Shown in pieces: positions 43,692 through 56,441 of a stretch of DNA of 64,000 bases. The first letter of the stretch is position 1; each line of letters starts with the position of its first letter. Source of the DNA: Nocardia sputorum (GTDB lineage: Bacteria; Actinomycetota; Actinomycetes; Mycobacteriales; Mycobacteriaceae); contig NZ_AP026978.1 in the NCBI RefSeq assembly GCF_027924405.1, positions 1,426,001 through 1,490,000 of the forward strand, written 5' to 3'. A model generated the notes under the pieces. The model was given only the letters and a program-made list of their open reading frames with translations, made no database searches and had not been told where the DNA came from. The translations under genes and the position numbers were made by a program.

Positions 43692-44648
43692 ATGGCTGAA
43701 GTACTCGTGCTCGTCGAGCACGCCGAGGGTGCGATCAAGAAGGTCAGCACCGAACTGCTCACCGCCGCCCGCGCCCTGGGCGAGCCCGCCGCCGTCGTGC
43801 TCGGCACGGCAGGCACCGGCGAGAAGCTGGCCGACGCGCTGGCCGCGGCGGGCGCCGAGAAGATCTACATCGCCGAGTCCGACGATGTGGAGAACTACCT
43901 GGTGACCCCGAAGGTCGACGTGCTGGCCGCGCTGACCGAGTCGGTCTCGCCCGCCGCCGTCATCGTCGCCGCCAGCGCCGAAGGCAAGGAGGTGTCGGGT
44001 CGCCTGGCCGCCCGCATCGGCTCCGGCCTGCTGGTCGACGTGATCGACGTGAAGTCCGACGGCACCGCCGTGCACTCCATCTTCGGTGGCGCGTTCACCG
44101 TCGACGCCAAGGTCACCGGCGATGTCCCGGTGATCTCGGTCCGCCCGGGCGCCGTCGAAGCCTCCGCGCAGGCGGGTGTGGGCGAGAAGGTGACCGTCGA
44201 GGTGCCCGCGCAGGAAGAAGGCGTGGTCAAGGTGACCTCGCGGGAGCCGGTCGTGGCCGGTGACCGTCCGGAACTCACCGAGGCGAGCATCGTGGTCTCC
44301 GGTGGCCGCGGTGTCGGTTCCGCCGACAACTTCGCGGTGGTCGAGGCGCTGGCCGACTCGCTCGGCGCGGCCGTCGGCGCGTCGCGCGCCGCGGTCGACT
44401 CGGGCTACTACCCGGGCCAGTTCCAGGTGGGCCAGACCGGTAAGACGGTCTCCCCGCAGCTGTACATCGCCCTCGGCATCTCCGGCGCCATCCAGCACCG
44501 CGCCGGCATGCAGACCTCGAAGACCATCGTCGCGGTCAACAAGGACGAAGAGGCGCCGATCTTCGAGATCGCCGACTACGGCATCGTGGGCGACCTGTTC
44601 AACGTCGCGCCCCAGCTGACCGAAGCGGTCAAGGCGCACAAGGGCTGA
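43692..44648 (+). CDS. etfA: Electron transfer flavoprotein alpha subunit
   Basis: The subunit has 318 residues. The C-terminal FAD-binding domain shows [42 protein letters not shown] (in part: GASRAAVD and QVGQTGKTV), [16 protein letters not shown] and [19 protein letters not shown], all diagnostic of EtfA. The N-terminal domain pairs with EtfB. The final 48 bases of the gene (44601-44648) are duplicated exactly at 46526-46573, which suggests an insertion at the 3' end of this gene. The protein end ([10 protein letters not shown]) is the same in either copy. Confidence 0.97.
44601..44648 (+). repeat. 48-bp direct repeat, left copy (etfA 3' end)
   Basis: Bases 44601-44648, from AACGTCGCGC to AAGGGCTGA, are identical over 48 of 48 positions to 46526-46573. 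It encodes [19 protein letters not shown], the end of EtfA. The two copies bound a 1925-bp unit with two genes. Confidence 0.95.
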
Positions 44649-44663
44649 CGCCCGGAGTGACCG

Positions 44664-44697
44664 AAAGTGGCCCCGACCGGACGGTCGGGGCCACTTT
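44664..44697 (+). terminator. Strong intrinsic terminator after the left etfA end
   Basis: A perfect 16-bp stem (AAAGTGGCCCCGACCG paired with its complement, two-base centre) ends in a T-run, 15 bases past the stop. Confidence 0.95.
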
Positions 44698-44787
44698 TTC
44701 GTTTCACCCCGAATGGAAGTGCCTACAACGCTTTTGAGCTACGCTTGGCGAGCGTTGCTGCACTGCAGGATGGGGGCAAGGGGGGCG

Positions 44788-45348
44788 ATGAGCGACGTCG
44801 TGGACAGCGGCAGTCTTCAGTTGGCGACCGGCGTGGACGGCGGTCTGCCCATCACCGCGCGGCAGGAACAGTTCAGCGTTGCTTTCGTGCGTATGGTCGC
44901 CGCCGCTGCGGGCTGTTCGATCAAAAGTCACGAGACCGACTACGACGGGGTCGACATCACGATCGTGGCTTCCGCGGACTATGCGAGATACTACTGCCCT
45001 GAATTCGAAATGCAGCTCGAGTGCACGACGCAGCGGCACTTGCTCAGAACGCACGACATGGCATGGTCGCTGAAGCGAGACCGATTTCTCGAGCTGGTGA
45101 ATCCCAAGCGGTTCGTCCCGGCGTTGCTCGGCGTGTTGCTCATACCGGACGACCCGGACGAGCTGCTGGACCTTTCCGAAGACGGGCTCAGAACTTCCAG
45201 TCGCATGTATTGGGAACATGCGGCGAACCTCGGCGGGATCGAGGACGATAAAGCCAGCAAGACGGTCCACCTACCGCGAAGTAACCTCTTCGACGTGGGC
45301 GGACTGCGGGGCATCATGCAGTCGATCGGCGAAGGAGGTCAGTGGTGA
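44788..45348 (+). CDS. DUF4365-like protein of the etfA islet
   Basis: From the ATG at 44788 the protein has 186 residues. The N-terminal core ITARQEQFSVAFVRMVAAAAG, then SHETDYDGVDITIV and FEMQLECTT, has the layout of DUF4365, which I relate to the PD-(D/E)XK nuclease fold (Glu in the first helix, Asp after a GxD turn, then QxK on the next strand). Here the QxK position reads QLE, so the expected Lys is missing. The C-terminal part (KRDRFLELVNPKRFVPALLGVLLIP) follows the family pattern. No signal peptide. It overlaps the next gene by four bases and shows less GC-biased codons than the flanking core genes, which fits recent acquisition. DUF4365 assignment is from pattern recognition. Confidence 0.75.
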   Translation: MSDVVDSGSLQLATGVDGGLPITARQEQFSVAFVRMVAAAAGCSIKSHETDYDGVDITIVASADYARYYCPEFEMQLECTTQRHLLRTHDMAWSLKRDRFLELVNPKRFVPALLGVLLIPDDPDELLDLSEDGLRTSSRMYWEHAANLGGIEDDKASKTVHLPRSNLFDVGGLRGIMQSIGEGGQW

Positions 45349-46499
45349 AAAGGACTCCGCTCGACAGCCTCCAGGAGGTCGCGTCCGCGCTATCGCCCCC
45401 AGCGGTGTCCCAGTACCTCGCGACCCATGACTGGCAGCTCGAGGTCCGCGAGCAAGACGTCAGGGAGATTTGGCGGCTTCCGGGTGAGGATGGCCTTCTA
45501 GGCCGGATCATGCTGCCCTTGGCTACCGACTATGTGGACTTCTCCCGGCGTTTTCGCGACACGCTTCAAGCTCTCGCCACCATCTATGACTGGGACCCAG
45601 CACAACTGGTCGAACGAATAGCGGCTGCTCGGGCGGACTTGTTCTTCGTTCGACTCGATCAGGAAATGAATGACGGCACTATCCCGTTCCGGCAAGCCGA
45701 AACAAGCTTGGAAGCCCTGTTCACGATGATGAAGGCGGCCGCGACCACCGCCGACGACCCGACCCACTCGCATCGGGGTCGCAGATCCGCCGTGGTCACG
45801 AACTTTCTGGAAGACGACATTCGGCTCGGACACACCAAGCGCGGCAGCTTCGTGTTCACTGTGGTCACCCGTCTCGGTGAAATTCCGCCATCGCAGGTCA
45901 CCGGGATGCCAGCGGTGTCGTTTCCGCGCAAGGTGATGACAACGCTGGCGACGGGTCTGCAGTCGGCGTGGCAACTCGCACTCGACTGGGATGAGCGCGC
46001 TCTCGACCATGCGGGGCAGTTGGGTCTGAGCGGCAGTTTGGTCGAGTCGGTGCTGGATCTCACGCAGCCCGAAGCCCTACGCGCGCTGGATCTATCCTTC
46101 GACTGGGCAGCTGGCGAGCGGGCGCCCGAAGTCGAAACCTCACGGATCGTGTTCGACCGCAACGCTATGGCGGGGTTGCCCCGTGTCCGAGAGCGGTTGG
46201 TTCGCCGTGAGGAGCCGCCGCGTCATCTGACCCTAATCGGTCTGGTGCGCACCCTGAACCGGGATGAACTCGGTGACGAGGATCAAGAAGCCACGAGCAT
46301 CGTGCTGTCGACACACGTGGACGGACGGCTGCGAAAAGTGCACGTACCGCTCGTCGGTGACGACTATCAGTGGGCGATCCGCGCACACCACAGCAAGCAG
46401 CCGATTGTTGTGTCCGGCGATCTGGTGTTCGAACGCGGTGCTTGGCGCTTGACCGGGATGATCAGCCTGGACCCGAGTCATCTGCACCGGCAGAGCTGA
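45345..46499 (+). CDS. Unrecognised protein, partner of the DUF4365-like gene
   Basis: I do not recognise this 384-residue protein. It starts at the GTG at 45345, behind GGAGG, overlapping the upstream stop as GTGA. It seems cytoplasmic, with no membrane segment. An N-terminal region (residues 1-95) contains YLATHDWQLEVREQDVREIWRLP-like text and the phrase LPLATDYVDFSRRFRDTLQALA; the middle has SHRGRRSAVVTNFLEDD and a beta-rich stretch RGSFVFTVVTRLG; the C terminus is beta-rich (ATSIVLSTHVDGRLRKVHV, PIVVSGDLVFERGAWRLTGM). The last segment looks like an OB-like or small barrel domain binding a ligand, but this is a guess. Tight coupling with the DUF4365-like gene implies joint function. Confidence 0.8.
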   Translation: MKRTPLDSLQEVASALSPPAVSQYLATHDWQLEVREQDVREIWRLPGEDGLLGRIMLPLATDYVDFSRRFRDTLQALATIYDWDPAQLVERIAAARADLFFVRLDQEMNDGTIPFRQAETSLEALFTMMKAAATTADDPTHSHRGRRSAVVTNFLEDDIRLGHTKRGSFVFTVVTRLGEIPPSQVTGMPAVSFPRKVMTTLATGLQSAWQLALDWDERALDHAGQLGLSGSLVESVLDLTQPEALRALDLSFDWAAGERAPEVETSRIVFDRNAMAGLPRVRERLVRREEPPRHLTLIGLVRTLNRDELGDEDQEATSIVLSTHVDGRLRKVHVPLVGDDYQWAIRAHHSKQPIVVSGDLVFERGAWRLTGMISLDPSHLHRQS

Positions 46500-46525
46500 T
46501 GTCCGGTTGCGAGCGACTGCGCTAG

Positions 46526-46573
46526 AACGTCGCGCCCCAGCTGACCGAAGCGGTCAAGGCGCACAAGGGCTGA
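46526..46573 (+). repeat. 48-bp direct repeat, right copy
   Basis: Exact second copy of 44601-44648, starting 27 bases after the last islet gene and ending at the TGA equivalent to the etfA stop. Sequence diverges immediately on both sides (GCTAG before; TCGGG after), so the repeat is sharply bounded. Confidence 0.95.
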
Positions 46574-46592: not shown

Positions 46593-46619
46593 CGGCCCCG
46601 GACTTCGTGTCCGGGGCCG
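46593..46619 (+). terminator. Terminator after the right repeat copy
   Basis: CGGCCCCGGAC/GTCCGGGGCCG form a perfect 11-bp stem with loop TTCGT, followed by TTGGCGTTT. It may be the original etfA terminator, displaced by the islet. Confidence 0.8.
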
Positions 46620-46796: not shown

Positions 46797-47852
46797 GTGA
46801 GCATCCCCACGGAACCGATCGGTAGCATCCCTCGACCTCACGACCTGTTGGCCGCCATGGCCGACGATTCCGGCGACGCCGCCGCGCTCGCCGAACTTCA
46901 GCGCAGCGCGGTCGCCGAGACCATCCGCAAGCTGGAAGAACTCGGCTCTCCCGTCGTCACCGACGGCGAGCAGTCCAAGCCGAGTTTCGCCACCTATCCG
47001 ATCGCCGGGCTGGACAACCTGGCCCCGGACGGGGCGATCATCCCGTTCGCCGACGGGCATCAGAGACAGTTGCCACGGTTGACCTCGGGCCCGTTCCGCT
47101 ATGCCGCTCATGCGGCGGACTATCTGCGCAGCGCGCAGCAGCACGCCACCGTTCCGGTGAAGCAGGCCGTCATCGCGCCGTCGGCGCTGAGCCTGTTGTA
47201 TCCGGCCGACGGAATCGAGGGTTACCCCCGCGAGCAGTTCCTCGCCGACCTGGCCGACGCGGCCGAGGCCGACATCCGCGGCTGCCTGGAGGCGGGTGCG
47301 CACCTGGTGCAGCTCGACTTCACCGAGGGGCGGCTGTCGCTCAAGCTGGATCCGAGCGGCGGGGTGCTCGACCAGTTCATCGAGCTGAACAACACGGTGC
47401 TCGAGCGGTTCTCGGACGAGGAGCGGGCCAGGATCGGCGTGCATACCTGCCCCGGCGGCGATCAGGACTCCACGCACAGTCTGGACGTGGACTATGTCCA
47501 ATTGCTGCCGAAGCTGCTGCAACTGCGGGTGGGCGCGTTCTACCTCCAGTTCGCCAGCGAGCCGGACCCGGAGAAGGTGCTCGCCGTGGTCGCCGAGCAC
47601 CTGCCCGCCGAGGCGCGGGTGTTCATCGGCGTCACCGACCCGATCGACCCGCAGGTCGAGACACCCGAACAGGTCCGCGACCGGGTGCTGCTCGCCGCCC
47701 GCTTCCTGCCCGTCGAACGGTTGGGCACCTGCGACGACTGCGGCTTCTCGCCGTTCGCCGACGACACCTCCACCTCGCGGGAAACCGCGTTCGCCAAGAT
47801 CCGTGCCCGCATCGAGGGCACGGCACTGGCGGCGACGGAACTGGGCGTCTGA
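46797..47852 (+). CDS. Cobalamin-independent methionine synthase-like protein (MetE C-terminal domain)
   Basis: The 351-residue protein is a single TIM-barrel equivalent to the catalytic C-terminal half of MetE. Visible markers are IGSIPRPHDLLAAM at the start, the zinc-site segment VHTCPGGD with His and Cys, and the late CDDCGFSPF. Full MetE is about 750 residues, so this belongs to the short methionine-synthase-II-like group that lacks the N-terminal folate-binding duplicate domain. The methyl donor is probably not the usual polyglutamyl folate. The GTG at 46797 begins it. A second, different short MetE-like gene occurs at 57691. Confidence 0.85.
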   Translation: MSIPTEPIGSIPRPHDLLAAMADDSGDAAALAELQRSAVAETIRKLEELGSPVVTDGEQSKPSFATYPIAGLDNLAPDGAIIPFADGHQRQLPRLTSGPFRYAAHAADYLRSAQQHATVPVKQAVIAPSALSLLYPADGIEGYPREQFLADLADAAEADIRGCLEAGAHLVQLDFTEGRLSLKLDPSGGVLDQFIELNNTVLERFSDEERARIGVHTCPGGDQDSTHSLDVDYVQLLPKLLQLRVGAFYLQFASEPDPEKVLAVVAEHLPAEARVFIGVTDPIDPQVETPEQVRDRVLLAARFLPVERLGTCDDCGFSPFADDTSTSRETAFAKIRARIEGTALAATELGV

Positions 47853-49314: not shown

Positions 49315-50172
49315 TCAGCAGCGGTGCAGTGCGGTGAGCAGGGTCTCCAGGATCGGTGAGCGCCGGGCGTCGGCGCGCAGCACCGCCGACACCGGGATCC
49401 GTAGCTTGCTTTCGGCCAGGCGCAGGACGACCAGTCCTTCGGTGGTGCTTTCGGCATACAGCACCGTCCACGCGTCGGGCCGGTTGATCAGCTCCATCGT
49501 CGCCGTGTGATCGGGCGGGATCGGCGGCCCGAACGTGGGACCGGTGGGCAATTCGGCGAACGCGTTGCGGATCACGGTGTGCAACAACACCTGCTCCTGC
49601 TCCGGCGGCAGCAGCAGGGGGTACGAACTCAGGTCCGCCAGGGTCACTGTGTCCTTCGTCGCCAGCGGATGCGCGCTCGAGGTGGCGATCACCAGGTCCT
49701 CCACCCACAGTTGCTCCACCACGAGGCCGGGCTGGTCGACCCTGCCGCGGATGAGGGCGAGATCGCAGTCGCCGTCGGTCACCGCGGTGATGCGCTGGCG
49801 GAACGGTTTGATGACGAACTCGATCTCCGCCTCCGGATGCGCGGCGCGCGCCCCCGCGATCGCCGACAGCGAGCGGGTGGCGAAGGACATGTTCGCGGCC
49901 AGCCGTATGCGCGGACCCACCGTGCGCACGGCGGCGCGGATCGCCGACTCCAGGCTCAGCATTTGTTTCGCGAGGGGAAGTAGCCGGGCGGTGGCGTCGG
50001 TGGGCACGACCGAGCGGGTCGAGCGCTCGAACAGTTGCACACCGAGGTCGCGCTCGAGCCGGGAGATCTGGTGGCTGATCGCCGACTGCGAGATGAAGCA
50101 GCGCGCCGCAGCGCCGCTGAAGCTGAGCTCTTCGCACACCGCGACGAAGTAGGTGAGCTGCCGAAGTTCCAC
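49315..50172 (-). CDS. LysR-family transcriptional regulator
   Basis: The regulator has 285 residues. The N-terminal winged helix (MELRQLTYFVAVCEELSFS, then the recognition helix SQSAISHQISRLERDLG) is followed by a linker helix and a C-terminal effector domain from about residue 90 with the usual two-lobed binding fold. LysR proteins usually control a divergent gene; here that is the NDH-2 gene 113 bases away. The shared gap has an AT-rich core and an inverted repeat. The effector cannot be told. Confidence 0.93.
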   Translation of the reverse strand: MELRQLTYFVAVCEELSFSGAAARCFISQSAISHQISRLERDLGVQLFERSTRSVVPTDATARLLPLAKQMLSLESAIRAAVRTVGPRIRLAANMSFATRSLSAIAGARAAHPEAEIEFVIKPFRQRITAVTDGDCDLALIRGRVDQPGLVVEQLWVEDLVIATSSAHPLATKDTVTLADLSSYPLLLPPEQEQVLLHTVIRNAFAELPTGPTFGPPIPPDHTATMELINRPDAWTVLYAESTTEGLVVLRLAESKLRIPVSAVLRADARRSPILETLLTALHRC

Positions 50173-53775: not shown

Positions 53776-54132
53776 TCAGAATCCGCTGCCCGTGGGCGGC
53801 CGGAACCCGGGTTGCACACCGGGCCTGTCCTGGTCCCGGTCGTCCTGGCGGTCACGGCCGAGGAGCCAGTCGTCGTCGCAGTCGGGATCCCGGTTGTGGT
53901 CGTGGAAGCGGCCGTGGTCGTGGAAACGGCCGTGGTCGTGGATACAGCCGTGGTCGTGGAAACGGCCGTGGTCGTGGAAACGGCCGTGGTCGTGGAGATC
54001 GGCGGGCTCGAGCACGATCGGGTCGGCGAGCGCGGGCACCGCGACGGCGGCGACCGGCATCACAGCGAGTACGGACGCGGCCGCGGCACGTGCCAGCACA
54101 CGTCGCGTAAGTCCCTGCGGGCGTCGGTCCAT
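53776..54132 (-). CDS. Secreted histidine-rich protein, copy 1
   Basis: The start at 54132 follows GAGGAAG and opens a secretory signal (RRVLARAAAASVLAVMPVAA, cleaved near ALADP). The 118-residue product then has six tandem HDHGRF-type hexapeptides (about residues 47-82), encoded by 18-bp DNA repeats at 53895-54002, then an Asp-rich stretch (DPDCDDDWLLGRDRQDD) and the tail FRPPTGSGF shared with copy 2. A secreted His/Asp-rich chain suggests binding of Zn, Ni, Cu or Co outside the cell. No family is known to me. The paralogue lies 850 bases further on. Confidence 0.8.
   Translation of the reverse strand: MDRRPQGLTRRVLARAAAASVLAVMPVAAVAVPALADPIVLEPADLHDHGRFHDHGRFHDHGCIHDHGRFHDHGRFHDHNRDPDCDDDWLLGRDRQDDRDQDRPGVQPGFRPPTGSGF
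53895..54002 (-). repeat. Six tandem 18-bp repeats encoding HDHGRF units
   Basis: Unit CGTGGTCGTGGAAACGGC on the plus strand, six copies in register, with small changes in copies 1, 3 and 6. They expand the His-rich region of copy 1 and are absent from copy 2. Confidence 0.9.
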
Positions 54133-54625
54133 CGGGAACTTCCTCTCATGGATTCGTCCGGTAGTCGGCCGCTCGGCACACCGGCCTGGGCCGCACGGGA
54201 AACGGACGAGCAGCGATGAATTCGTCCGACAACGTATCGCTGTTCGACGGTTCACTTAATAGGTGAAAACCCTGAAATCTACCGCCGACAGGGGGATTCG
54301 ACGGGAAACAGAACCGGAATCGCATCCCTCGCGTGGCTGTGTGCAAGGGGCAACGCGTCGACGCTGCACGGATCGGTGCGCGCGGGTCGATTGTCGCCGA
54401 CGGAGTAGCAGCCGTGAAGCAGCGCACCGAACCGGCACTATCACGATCTGCTTGGCTTGCCCCTCCTTGTCGGTCAACCCGCCCACACGGCCGGGCTCGA
54501 CCACCACGCACTCCCGAGGCTCGGTCTGTATCAGACACCGTGATCGTGAGCACTCGCATCGAGCGCAGAGGCGCTGACACGGTTCCGGGGCGAGCCGATG
54601 CCGACTCGCCCCGGAAAGGAAAAAC
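54133..54625. other. Gap between the two histidine-rich genes
   Basis: Holds the upstream region of copy 1 and the iscS-like remnant; 54402-54625 shows no supported gene. Open frames here have no family. Confidence 0.5.
54348..54401 (+). pseudogene. Remnant of the cysteine-desulfurase 5' end
   Basis: GGGCAACGCGTCG, CTGCACGGATCGG and GCGCGCG recur in the same order as in the iscS-like gene at 55337-55372, followed after a deletion by TCGATTGTCGCCGAC (TCGATCGCCGCCGAC in the gene). The preceding 90 bases resemble the region upstream of that gene (AATAGGTGA, ACCCTGA, CCGGAATCGCA). This marks one end of a tandem duplication that also copied the His-rich gene. Confidence 0.7.
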
Positions 54626-54961
54626 TCAGAAACCGCTGCCCGTGGGCGGCCGGAATCCGTGGTGCCAACCGGGCCTGCCGTGGTCCCAGTCGTCGTGGCG
54701 GTCCCGACCGCGGAACCAGTCGTCGTGGCGACCCCGATCCCAGTCGTTGTGCCGCCCGTTGTTCCAGCCGTCGTGACGGTGACCGCCGTGGCCGTGCCCT
54801 GGGCGGCCGTGCGCCGCGTCGACCTGGTCGGGGGTCTCGAGCACGATCGGGTCGGCGAGCGCGGGCACCGCGACGGCGGCGACCGGCATCAGGGCGAGTA
54901 CGGACGCCGCGGCGGCGCGTGCCAGCACACGTCGCGTACGTCCATGGGTGCGTGGGTCCAT
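54626..54961 (-). CDS. Secreted histidine-rich protein, copy 2
   Basis: A 111-residue paralogue of copy 1. The signal (RRVLARAAAASVLALMPVAA then ALADPIVLE) and the tail (HHGFRPPTGSGF) are nearly identical, but the middle is different: GRPGHGHGGHRHDGWNNGRHNDWDRGRHDDWFRGRD, a His/Asp/Trp repeat (RHDDW-like). It should also be exported and bind metal. Start chosen at 54961 behind GAGGAAG as for copy 1. The pair arose by tandem duplication with the nearby desulfurase 5' end. Confidence 0.8.
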   Translation of the reverse strand: MDPRTHGRTRRVLARAAAASVLALMPVAAVAVPALADPIVLETPDQVDAAHGRPGHGHGGHRHDGWNNGRHNDWDRGRHDDWFRGRDRHDDWDHGRPGWHHGFRPPTGSGF

Positions 54962-55211
54962 CGGAACTTCCTCACTCATCGATTCGTCCGGTAGTCGATC
55001 GCTCGGCGCTCCGGCCGGGAACCCGTTCGGGAGCGAGCGGGACAGCGATCAATACACTGGATAACGTACCGCTGTTCAGCGGCACATTCAATAGGTGATT
55101 ACCCTGAGATTCAGTTGCGTACTGGTGCATTCGGCCCGGAATCGCACCCCCCGCGGGCGCGCGAGCAGGGGGGAATAACCGGCAGATGGTGACGGCTATC
55201 CTTAACTGGTC

Positions 55212-56441
55212 ATGAAGTCGGCTTTTTCGGGTCCGGTCAACGGTGCTGCGCCCCAGACGGTCTACCTCGATCACGCGGCCACCACACCGATGCTGCCCGC
55301 GGCCATCGAGGCGATGACGGCTGCCCTGCGCACCACGGGCAACGCGTCGTCCCTGCACGGATCGGGGCGCGCGGCCCGGAGGCTGCTCGAAGAAGCGCGC
55401 GAGTCGATCGCCGCCGACCTGGGCGCCCGGCCCTCGGAGGTGGTCTTCACCTCCGGCGGCACCGAGAGCGACAATCTGGCGGTCAAGGGCATCTTCTGGG
55501 CGCGCCGCGACGCCGATCCGCGCCGGAACCGGATCATCGCCAGTTCGATCGAGCATCACGCGGTGATCGACGCGGTGGAGTGGCTGGAGCGGCACGAGGG
55601 CGCGCAGGTCACCTGGCTGCCGGTGGACGCCGAGGGCGTGGTCTCCGCCGGCGTGCTGCGCGCCGCGCTGGCCGACCAGCCCGACGATGTCGCGCTGGTC
55701 ACCGTCATGTGGGCGAACAACGAGGTCGGCGCCATCCAGCCGATCGCCGAATTGGCCGCCGTGGCAGCCGAATTCGGCGTTCCGATGCACAGCGACGCGG
55801 TACAGGCGGCGGCGCAGCTGCCGATCGACTTCGGCGCGAGCGGGTTGTCCGCGGCCAGTTTCGCCGGGCACAAGGTCGGCGGCCCGCACGGTGTCGGAGT
55901 GCTGCTGCTCGGCAGGCAGGTGCCGTGCGTGCCGCTGCTGCACGGCGGCGGCCACGAGCGCGACCTGCGGTCCGGCACCTCCGACACGGCGGCCGCCCTC
56001 GGCCTGGCCGCGGCGCTGCGCCAGACGGCGAGCGAACTTTCCGACCGGGCCGTCAAGCTGGTCGCGTTGCGCGACGCGTTGATCGACGGGATCCGCGCGG
56101 CGGCGCCCGACGCGGTGCTGAACGGCCCGTCCGGCGAGCGGCGTCTGCCCGGCAACGTGCACGTCACCTTCCCCGGGTGCGAGGGGGATTCACTGCTGAT
56201 GCTGCTGGACGCGGCGGGGGTCGAATGCTCGACCGGTTCGGCGTGCACCGCGGGCGTCGCCACGCCCAGTCACGTGCTGATCGCCATGGGCGTCGAGCCT
56301 CGGCAGGCGCGCGGATCGCTGCGCTTCTCGTTGGGCCACACCTCGACGCGGGCCGACGTGGACGCGCTGCTGGAAGTATTGCCCCAGGTGGTGGAGCGGG
56401 CCAAGGCCGCGGGCCTGGCCGGTGCGAAAGGAGGTGTCTGA
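55212..56441 (+). CDS. iscS: Cysteine desulfurase (IscS/NifS-like)
   Basis: A PLP enzyme of 409 residues that takes sulfur from cysteine. Markers: [12 protein letters not shown] at the N terminus, [26 protein letters not shown], the PLP Lys in [14 protein letters not shown] (about 222), RSGTSD and the catalytic-cysteine loop [16 protein letters not shown] (about 340). Its stop shares a base with the ATG of mnmA (TGATG), so it very probably supplies sulfur for tRNA 2-thiolation. No iscU or isc cluster follows. The order matches Rv3025c-Rv3024c. Confidence 0.95.

Follow-up and report, generated by a model that had tools for sequence, protein, structure and literature searches.

The subject of this study is a two-gene islet behind etfA in Nocardia sputorum, found in a stretch of 64,000 nucleotides (contig NZ_AP026978.1 of assembly GCF_027924405.1, positions 1,426,001 to 1,490,000 of the forward strand; hereafter the window), where the overlapping genes M02A and M02B (together M02AB, matching the phage defence candidate PDC-M02 of the PADLOC database) stand between two identical 48-bp copies of the etfA 3' end. 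The structure is real, and it is most likely neither an insertion at an attachment (att) site nor a recent one, but a stacking scar around a candidate defence pair. We hold, with a probability of roughly 60%, that the islet has long resided in a hotspot of recombination which lies between the Nocardia genes etfA and lysR, and that the etfA tails found there would be scars of one-sided homologous/illegitimate recombination which stacked two alleles, and not att sites.

The etfA-lysR hotspot and its broken etfA tails

The two copies (Table 1) agree at 48 of 48 positions with a spacing of 1925, both in the window sequence and by repeat search, and comparison of the window with itself gives the repeat an E value of 2e-20; in the whole genome (7.43 Mb, up to 3 mismatches) it occurs at these 2 places only, and a control pattern gave 0 matches. 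Both copies end in TGA, and each is then followed by its own hairpin (the second was recognised by eye). The preliminary description of this stretch had reported the exact repeat, the hairpin and two overlapping genes between its copies, and the lack of an integrase or transposase in the islet, and on these points it was correct, the last one by a Pfam scan of both genes. Since etfA is of full length with its own stop, the end of the target gene is restored. There is no tRNA gene in the window, where Rfam also gave 0 matches at the gathering score.

The setting was examined in 81 etfA loci, namely the window and 80 fetched loci, which are not a random draw (the 60 most similar of 147 with a match, the small contigs G055 and G125 being skipped, 7 added as M02 carriers and 13 for range; L and G numbers below designate loci and genomes). 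The frame is conserved, with etfA on one side and lysR and a NADH-dehydrogenase-like gene on the other, and lysR was found in 73 of the 81 loci. Near-empty sites and other cargo, which the preliminary description had proposed to look for, both occur: the gap between etfA and lysR is below 200 bp in 9 of the 81 loci, and varied cargo fills it elsewhere. This cargo includes M02AB, a methionine-synthase-like (metS-like) gene, a Uma2 nuclease, a protein kinase (L063:1696-3162), an aminoglycoside-phosphotransferase-like gene (APH_6; L099:2655-3644) and a PadR-ABC module, the families of five cargo proteins having been determined. The first cargo directly 3' of etfA is M02 in L058, L066, L079 and L101-L104, the metS-like gene in L043 and L046, Uma2 in, e.g., L063 and the ABC module in, e.g., L065. 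In a census over an even draw of 148 genomes, M02B had matches at E <=1e-10 in 31 of them; matches of at least 66% identity adjoin etfA, intact or as a fragment, in all 22 genomes that have one, and those of at most 42% identity lie on other contigs.

The evidence on the age of the islet comes from its right-hand join. The window and six relatives have the same M02-side context and the same left border of the copied tail, which falls between ...GAA and CGTCGCGGTCAAC.... The join to a 121-bp tail is present in L042, L044, L047, L048 (decayed) and L051, and the inner 75 bp of it are missing in the window and in L052. In Nocardia niwae (L042) the back copy measures 119 bp and in N. abscessus (L051) 114 bp, and these are identical to the front tails over 119/119 and 114/114 positions. 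The window reads GAACGTCGCG and then directly CCCCAG, with the 75 bases between two CGTCGCG words missing, so that the 48 bp can be read as the 121-bp tail minus 75 bp putatively deleted between two copies of AACGTCGCG. The same loss is found in N. arthritidis (L052), though on another branch, and not in the other relatives. The exact length of 48 bp therefore looks like a secondary, later product.

In the etfA tree, all seven join-bearing genomes fall in one group of 12 rows (support 95/65), of which 10 have M02 intact or as a remnant, and in the five relatives with a full gene M02B is 92-94% identical to that of the window. Because the join is common to seven genomes, it points to one old event, either inherited or later spread between species by recombination. 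The preliminary description had taken the islet for a recent insertion; with the join and the genes shared by the window and six relatives, this reading of the window group has been dropped, and one old shared event comes close to what that description had itself named as speaking against a recent date.

The etfA tails are not confined to this join. In L061 a tail of 208 bp (90%) separates a Uma2 gene from an M02B remnant, in L089 one of 147 bp (86%) stands between a permease-like piece of the ABC module and a remnant of M02A, and in L060 one of about 86 bp (87%) follows a stretch of 176 bp and precedes both M02 remnants and the metS-like gene. The layout of etfA, first cargo, etfA tail and second cargo is thus found in what look like four separate joins (window group, L060, L061 and L089), and each cargo is also found directly behind etfA elsewhere, except the first cargo of L060. 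A fixed att core is not seen, the tails at this one locus being 121, about 86, 147 and 208 bp long. A 41-bp match in L077 to the middle of etfA, 8.3 kb downstream, was set aside. Downstream of the join two contexts can be distinguished. The first is that of L042, with M02-less counterparts in L041 and L056 (84-93% identity), and the second is shared by the window, L047, L051 and L052, with the M02-less L043 as counterpart (82-87% over 39-45 bp, no match to L051).

These tails also bear on the idea that circular cassettes enter the etfA 3' end by means of a recombinase acting in trans, the element bringing a replacement tail, as at tRNA genes. It would account for an intact etfA with a partial copy at the far end and for several cargoes at the etfA site, and the genome does hold Phage_integrase genes elsewhere (9 matches in a search of that family, other recombinase families not being searched; 7 are over the cut-off, the nearest about 203 kb off). 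However, the tails begin at different positions of etfA, the 48-bp unit looks like a deletion product and not like a core, and the join is common to seven genomes; neither gene of the window islet is a recombinase (the genes of the other islets were clustered, and not all were scanned). We consider such insertion quite improbable. The att-site reading of the 48 bp itself is rejected, as the repeat is longer in relatives that share the join, and as other tails have different starting points. Of the insertion into a gene end proposed in the preliminary description, the addition of cargo behind an intact etfA stands, and the att-like integration does not, since the tails start at about -86, -147 and -208 and the 121-bp join is shared.

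Nor do we give much weight to a tandem duplication of the etfA end with later entry of M02AB between the copies, or to small duplications that arose separately and coincide by chance. That small duplications happen is indicated by another duplicated gene fragment of the window (54348-54385 and 55337-55374). However, none of the 81 loci has an etfA-tail repeat directly behind etfA without cargo between, L060 coming nearest with only 176 bp between, and direct-repeat pairs of comparable kind (30-400 bp, at least 80% identity, spacing 400-4500 bp, E <=1e-6) number only 3 in 760 kb, i.e., 3 in 400 kb of the window genome, one of which is the etfA-tail pair, and 0 in 360 kb of its closest relative, G147. 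Both variants seem very improbable.

The preferred reading, stacking by one-sided recombination, would proceed as follows. Cargo modules (M02AB, the metS-like gene, Uma2, the PadR-ABC transporter, kinases) would arrive by homologous recombination in the flanking core genes. Sometimes homology would be used on the etfA side only, and the far end would be joined illegitimately inside the etfA tail of the other allele, giving a product with an intact etfA, the first cargo in front, and a broken etfA tail before the second cargo; selection would retain products with an intact etfA. The window genome encodes Ku, so that end joining is possible. In an ancestor within the N. abscessus/asteroides group, an etfA-M02AB allele would have been fused with an etfA-metS-like one, the joint lying 121 bases short of the etfA end, and in the window lineage the tail would later have been shortened to 48 bp by deletion between two 9-bp words. 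Gene conversion may keep the tail identical to etfA in some species, and the tail may act as a homology arm for loss or exchange of the islet. That conversion between the copies took place is suggested by L042 and L051, whose tails are identical to the etfA end but whose bases between M02B and the back tail have diverged (24 of 29 aligned bases the same, with 21 gap columns).

Several points weigh against this reading. The one-sided recombination is known here from its presumed product only, and the scheme, which goes by the name of homology-facilitated illegitimate recombination, is reported to be rarer than ordinary homologous recombination by orders of magnitude in the species studied (PMC5361080). 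M02 may have come in front of the metS-like cargo, or the metS-like gene may have come in behind M02, and the front cargo of L060 is only a 176-bp stretch. The closest relative, G147 (L041), has neither M02 nor a second tail, but its downstream haplotype is a different one, so that it is no simple pre-insertion site and was not used as such; L043, the M02-less locus nearest to the window in context, matches it weakly. The back tails are decayed in L044 (29/31), L047 (60/68) and L052 (42/46), and L048 has a fragment only. The coding stretch at the etfA end is conserved anyway (112-114 of 114 among the front tails shown for the clade), so that gene conversion is argued from the non-coding status of the back copy. 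Defence, in turn, is a candidate label of a database, and the repeat-bounded M02 pairs at other loci are unexplained by recombination at etfA and may hint at a more specific process.

Table 1. Features of the etfA islet and its flanks (positions in the window)
Feature	Position	Strand	Basis
etfA, intact, left anchor of the hotspot	43692..44648	+	ETF and ETF_alpha domains
Front 48-bp copy, genuine 3' end of etfA	44601..44648	+	Sequence, repeat search
Hairpin behind etfA, terminator-like, with perfect arms of 16 bp, a loop of 2 bp and a T run after it	44664..44697	+	
PDC-M02A, DUF4365 protein, 186 aa, PD-(D/E)XK-like nuclease fold	44788..45348	+	Pfam E 7.8e-11; PADLOC E 2.2e-76
PDC-M02B, 385 aa	45342..46499	+	PADLOC E 6.1e-174
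Back 48-bp copy, read as remnant of a 121-bp duplicated etfA tail	46526..46573	+	Comparison with relatives
AACGTCGCG, putative joint left in the duplicated tail by an internal deletion of 75 bp	46526..46534	+	Window against L042, L044, L047, L051, L052
Second terminator-like hairpin, by eye	46593..46619	+	87% over 39 bp to the stretch directly 3' of etfA in M02-less L043
Second cargo, methionine-synthase-like (Meth_synt_2) gene	46797..47852	+	First gene after etfA in L043, L046
lysR-type gene, right anchor of the hotspot	49315..50172	-	Downstream of etfA in the compared loci

The second duplicated fragment of the window, outside the islet, is a 38-bp piece of a cysteine-desulfurase-like gene (55212-56441, named by eye) which is repeated 989 bp upstream at 92% identity. 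Between its copies lies a small His-rich gene (54626-54979), with a similar gene nearby at 53776-54255. It is perhaps a second scar of the etfA-tail type.

The candidate defence pair M02AB

Both component models of PDC-M02 match in the window, in adjacent genes, in the same order and over nearly full length, the two genes overlapping by 7 bp, which agrees with the defence-type cassette suspected in the preliminary description. At E <=1, PADLOC models numbering 25 for M02A and 37 for M02B matched. The structural model of M02A, which has the DUF4365 domain, matches 12 PDB chains at E <=0.001, all of them from SPARDA. M02B has 0 Pfam matches over the cut-off, so that no Argonaute or APAZ domain is seen in it, and its residues 292-385 weakly resemble OB-fold (PriB/SSB-like) chains. 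The islet cargo is thus probably an anti-phage pair, in which M02A would be the nuclease and M02B a regulator or sensor, this being a candidate function; a literature search found no published function of PDC-M02.

Residue 78 of M02A is Glu in the window (Q76-L-E78) and in P0124 of N. abscessus, and Lys in at least 90% of 44 aligned proteins. Judging from the alignment, the nuclease of the window may be altered by Glu78; related nucleases may tolerate Glu at the Lys position. The Q-x-K motif, proposed as the active site of TmuRE (PMC10810196), is not found in the M02A of the window. In L044 and L051, M02A is 82% identical to that of the window and M02B 92-94%, and the operon may have exchanged one gene between alleles.

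M02AB loci outside Nocardia

Twenty-four M02AB loci from other genera were searched for direct repeats of at least 30 bp and at least 80% identity within 400 bp of both ends, and 6 of them were bounded by such repeats (4 clear and 2 weak), while 18 had none. The clear repeats are those of Streptoalloteichus hindustanus (83 bp, 89%), Streptoalloteichus tenebrarius (98 bp, 97%) and Lentzea G465 (42 bp, 97.6%) and G662 (41 bp, 97.6%), and the weak ones those of G673 (33 bp, 82%) and G496 (34 bp, 85%). By eye they contain hairpins, and since they vary between loci, they seem to be derived from the target. As to the sample, the upstream sequence was short for L130 and L146 (about 1.1 and 0.4 kb), a weak match without M02A in G439 (L144) was left out, and L127, L132, L136-L140 and L157-L162, which duplicate genomes of the sample, did not add to the count, each genome entering it once. 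L148, whose region is full of direct repeats, counts as having no bounding repeats among the matches listed, and repeats in Saccharothrix carnea (L127/L245) were set aside, being more than 1 kb from M02AB and in neighbouring genes of similar type.

In Lentzea, M02AB lies between a pspC-like gene and guaA in 4 of 24 genomes, and the pspC-like gene follows guaA directly in the other 20, where one hairpin was recognised by eye; the site is filled in G662 and empty in G672, the nearest relative of G662. At this site M02AB occurs in both orientations (L150 against L149, L241 and L242) with palindromic terminators flanking it, and because these are palindromic, the flanking copies could also allow inversion.

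Such loci would be expected if M02AB were itself a mobile unit, small and lacking an integrase, whose insertion at transcription terminators duplicates 40-120 bp of target sequence on either side. The copying could come about through end joining at staggered breaks, through recombination of short repeats or with the aid of its own nuclease. The 6 repeat-bounded loci, the filled and empty Lentzea sites and the one reversed copy argue for such a unit, but 18 of the 24 loci have no such repeats, two of the six repeats could, given their shortness, be terminators that merely look alike, the repeat background was determined for Nocardia only, and tails are also left by non-M02 cargo in the etfA hotspot (L061, L089). 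We know of no enzyme for such terminator-copying insertion. We regard this explanation as unlikely, and it becomes slightly less probable still when extended to an integrase-free mobile defence cassette that repeatedly inserts at actinobacterial terminators and gene ends, with copies of 40 to 120 bp of target on both sides that would then provide the homology for it to excise, invert and re-enter the same site in related species.

As a control, about 355 kb of the window genome (G000) were aligned with G147, and of the 16 simple length differences of 250 bp or more, one had a boundary repeat with a minimum of 30 bp and 80%, and two others had longer but weaker ones (48 bp, 73%; 46 bp, 74%). 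Boundary repeats are therefore uncommon, and they are not unique to M02. Among small variable segments, about 10-18% are reported as repeat-flanked, mostly by less than 30 bp (PMC2884548). M02AB may have copied target sequence at its ends more frequently than other islets do, though the samples are small and of different genera. Outside the window, an insert of 638 bp that G147 lacks (L231:572-1211, i.e., G000:C1:1540572-1541211) lies behind a gene ending in ...LTEVIARLLPA, and 34 bp of the end of this upstream gene are repeated at the far end at 85% identity, a tail layout as at etfA.

M02 homologues were also found on two prophage records of M. abscessus. A distant M02AB pair (L146:398-2160, M02B 38%) is the first gene pair of the record prophi102-2, and the M02AB of L148 (M02B 55%) lies about 2 kb downstream of cas3 on a plasmid of Streptomyces aurantiacus, amid dense direct repeats.

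Comparison with known systems

The islet bears on how small defence cassettes move without genes of mobile elements; the joins in integrase-less hotspots are seldom visible. Here they can be read from the broken tails that one core gene has left, and both filled and near-empty relatives exist, so that the proposed route can be tested from strain to strain, and other hotspots can be read likewise by means of displaced tails of the flanking core gene. The guaA site of Lentzea, with filled and empty sister species, is suited to testing whether M02AB copies its target. Among the matches listed in our literature searches, no paper on the etfA islet was found.

With regard to its genes, the islet resembles the PADLOC-DB phage defence candidate PDC-M02 in both components, their order and nearly their full length, and differs in the Glu78 of the window M02A where at least 90% of the 44 proteins have Lys. 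M02A also resembles the DUF4365 nuclease of SPARDA/TmuRE-Ago (PMC10810196) in its domain and in the SPARDA chains matched by its model, while its partner M02B differs in having no Pfam match over the cut-off.

With regard to its structure, the islet resembles the immunity-gene arrays of the type VI secretion system in Vibrio cholerae and the products of homology-facilitated illegitimate recombination, where a new module is placed beside the conserved part of a gene and the old module, together with the old gene 3' end, is pushed downstream, homologous recombination being thought to spread the array afterwards (PMC5361080). In contrast, the reused end here belongs to a metabolic gene outside the cargo, in an actinobacterium, and the tail has only 48-208 bp. 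Hotspots without integrases (PMC5635113) likewise have core genes that flank fast-changing cargo without recognisable mobile elements, and homologous recombination in the flanks was proposed for them; that work tested recombination of flanking core genes across species, whereas here single joins are visible as gene tails. The microcin H47 island is similarly small and without its own recombinase, with long imperfect direct repeats (148 and 144 bp, 76%) and empty sites, and its excision and integration were shown in the laboratory (PMC3191183, PMC5426353), while the etfA islet is known from sequence alone and its repeats are parts of a core gene. The etfA islet fits as a variant among the known integrase-less and recombinase-less cases, its scar being formed by a core-gene tail.

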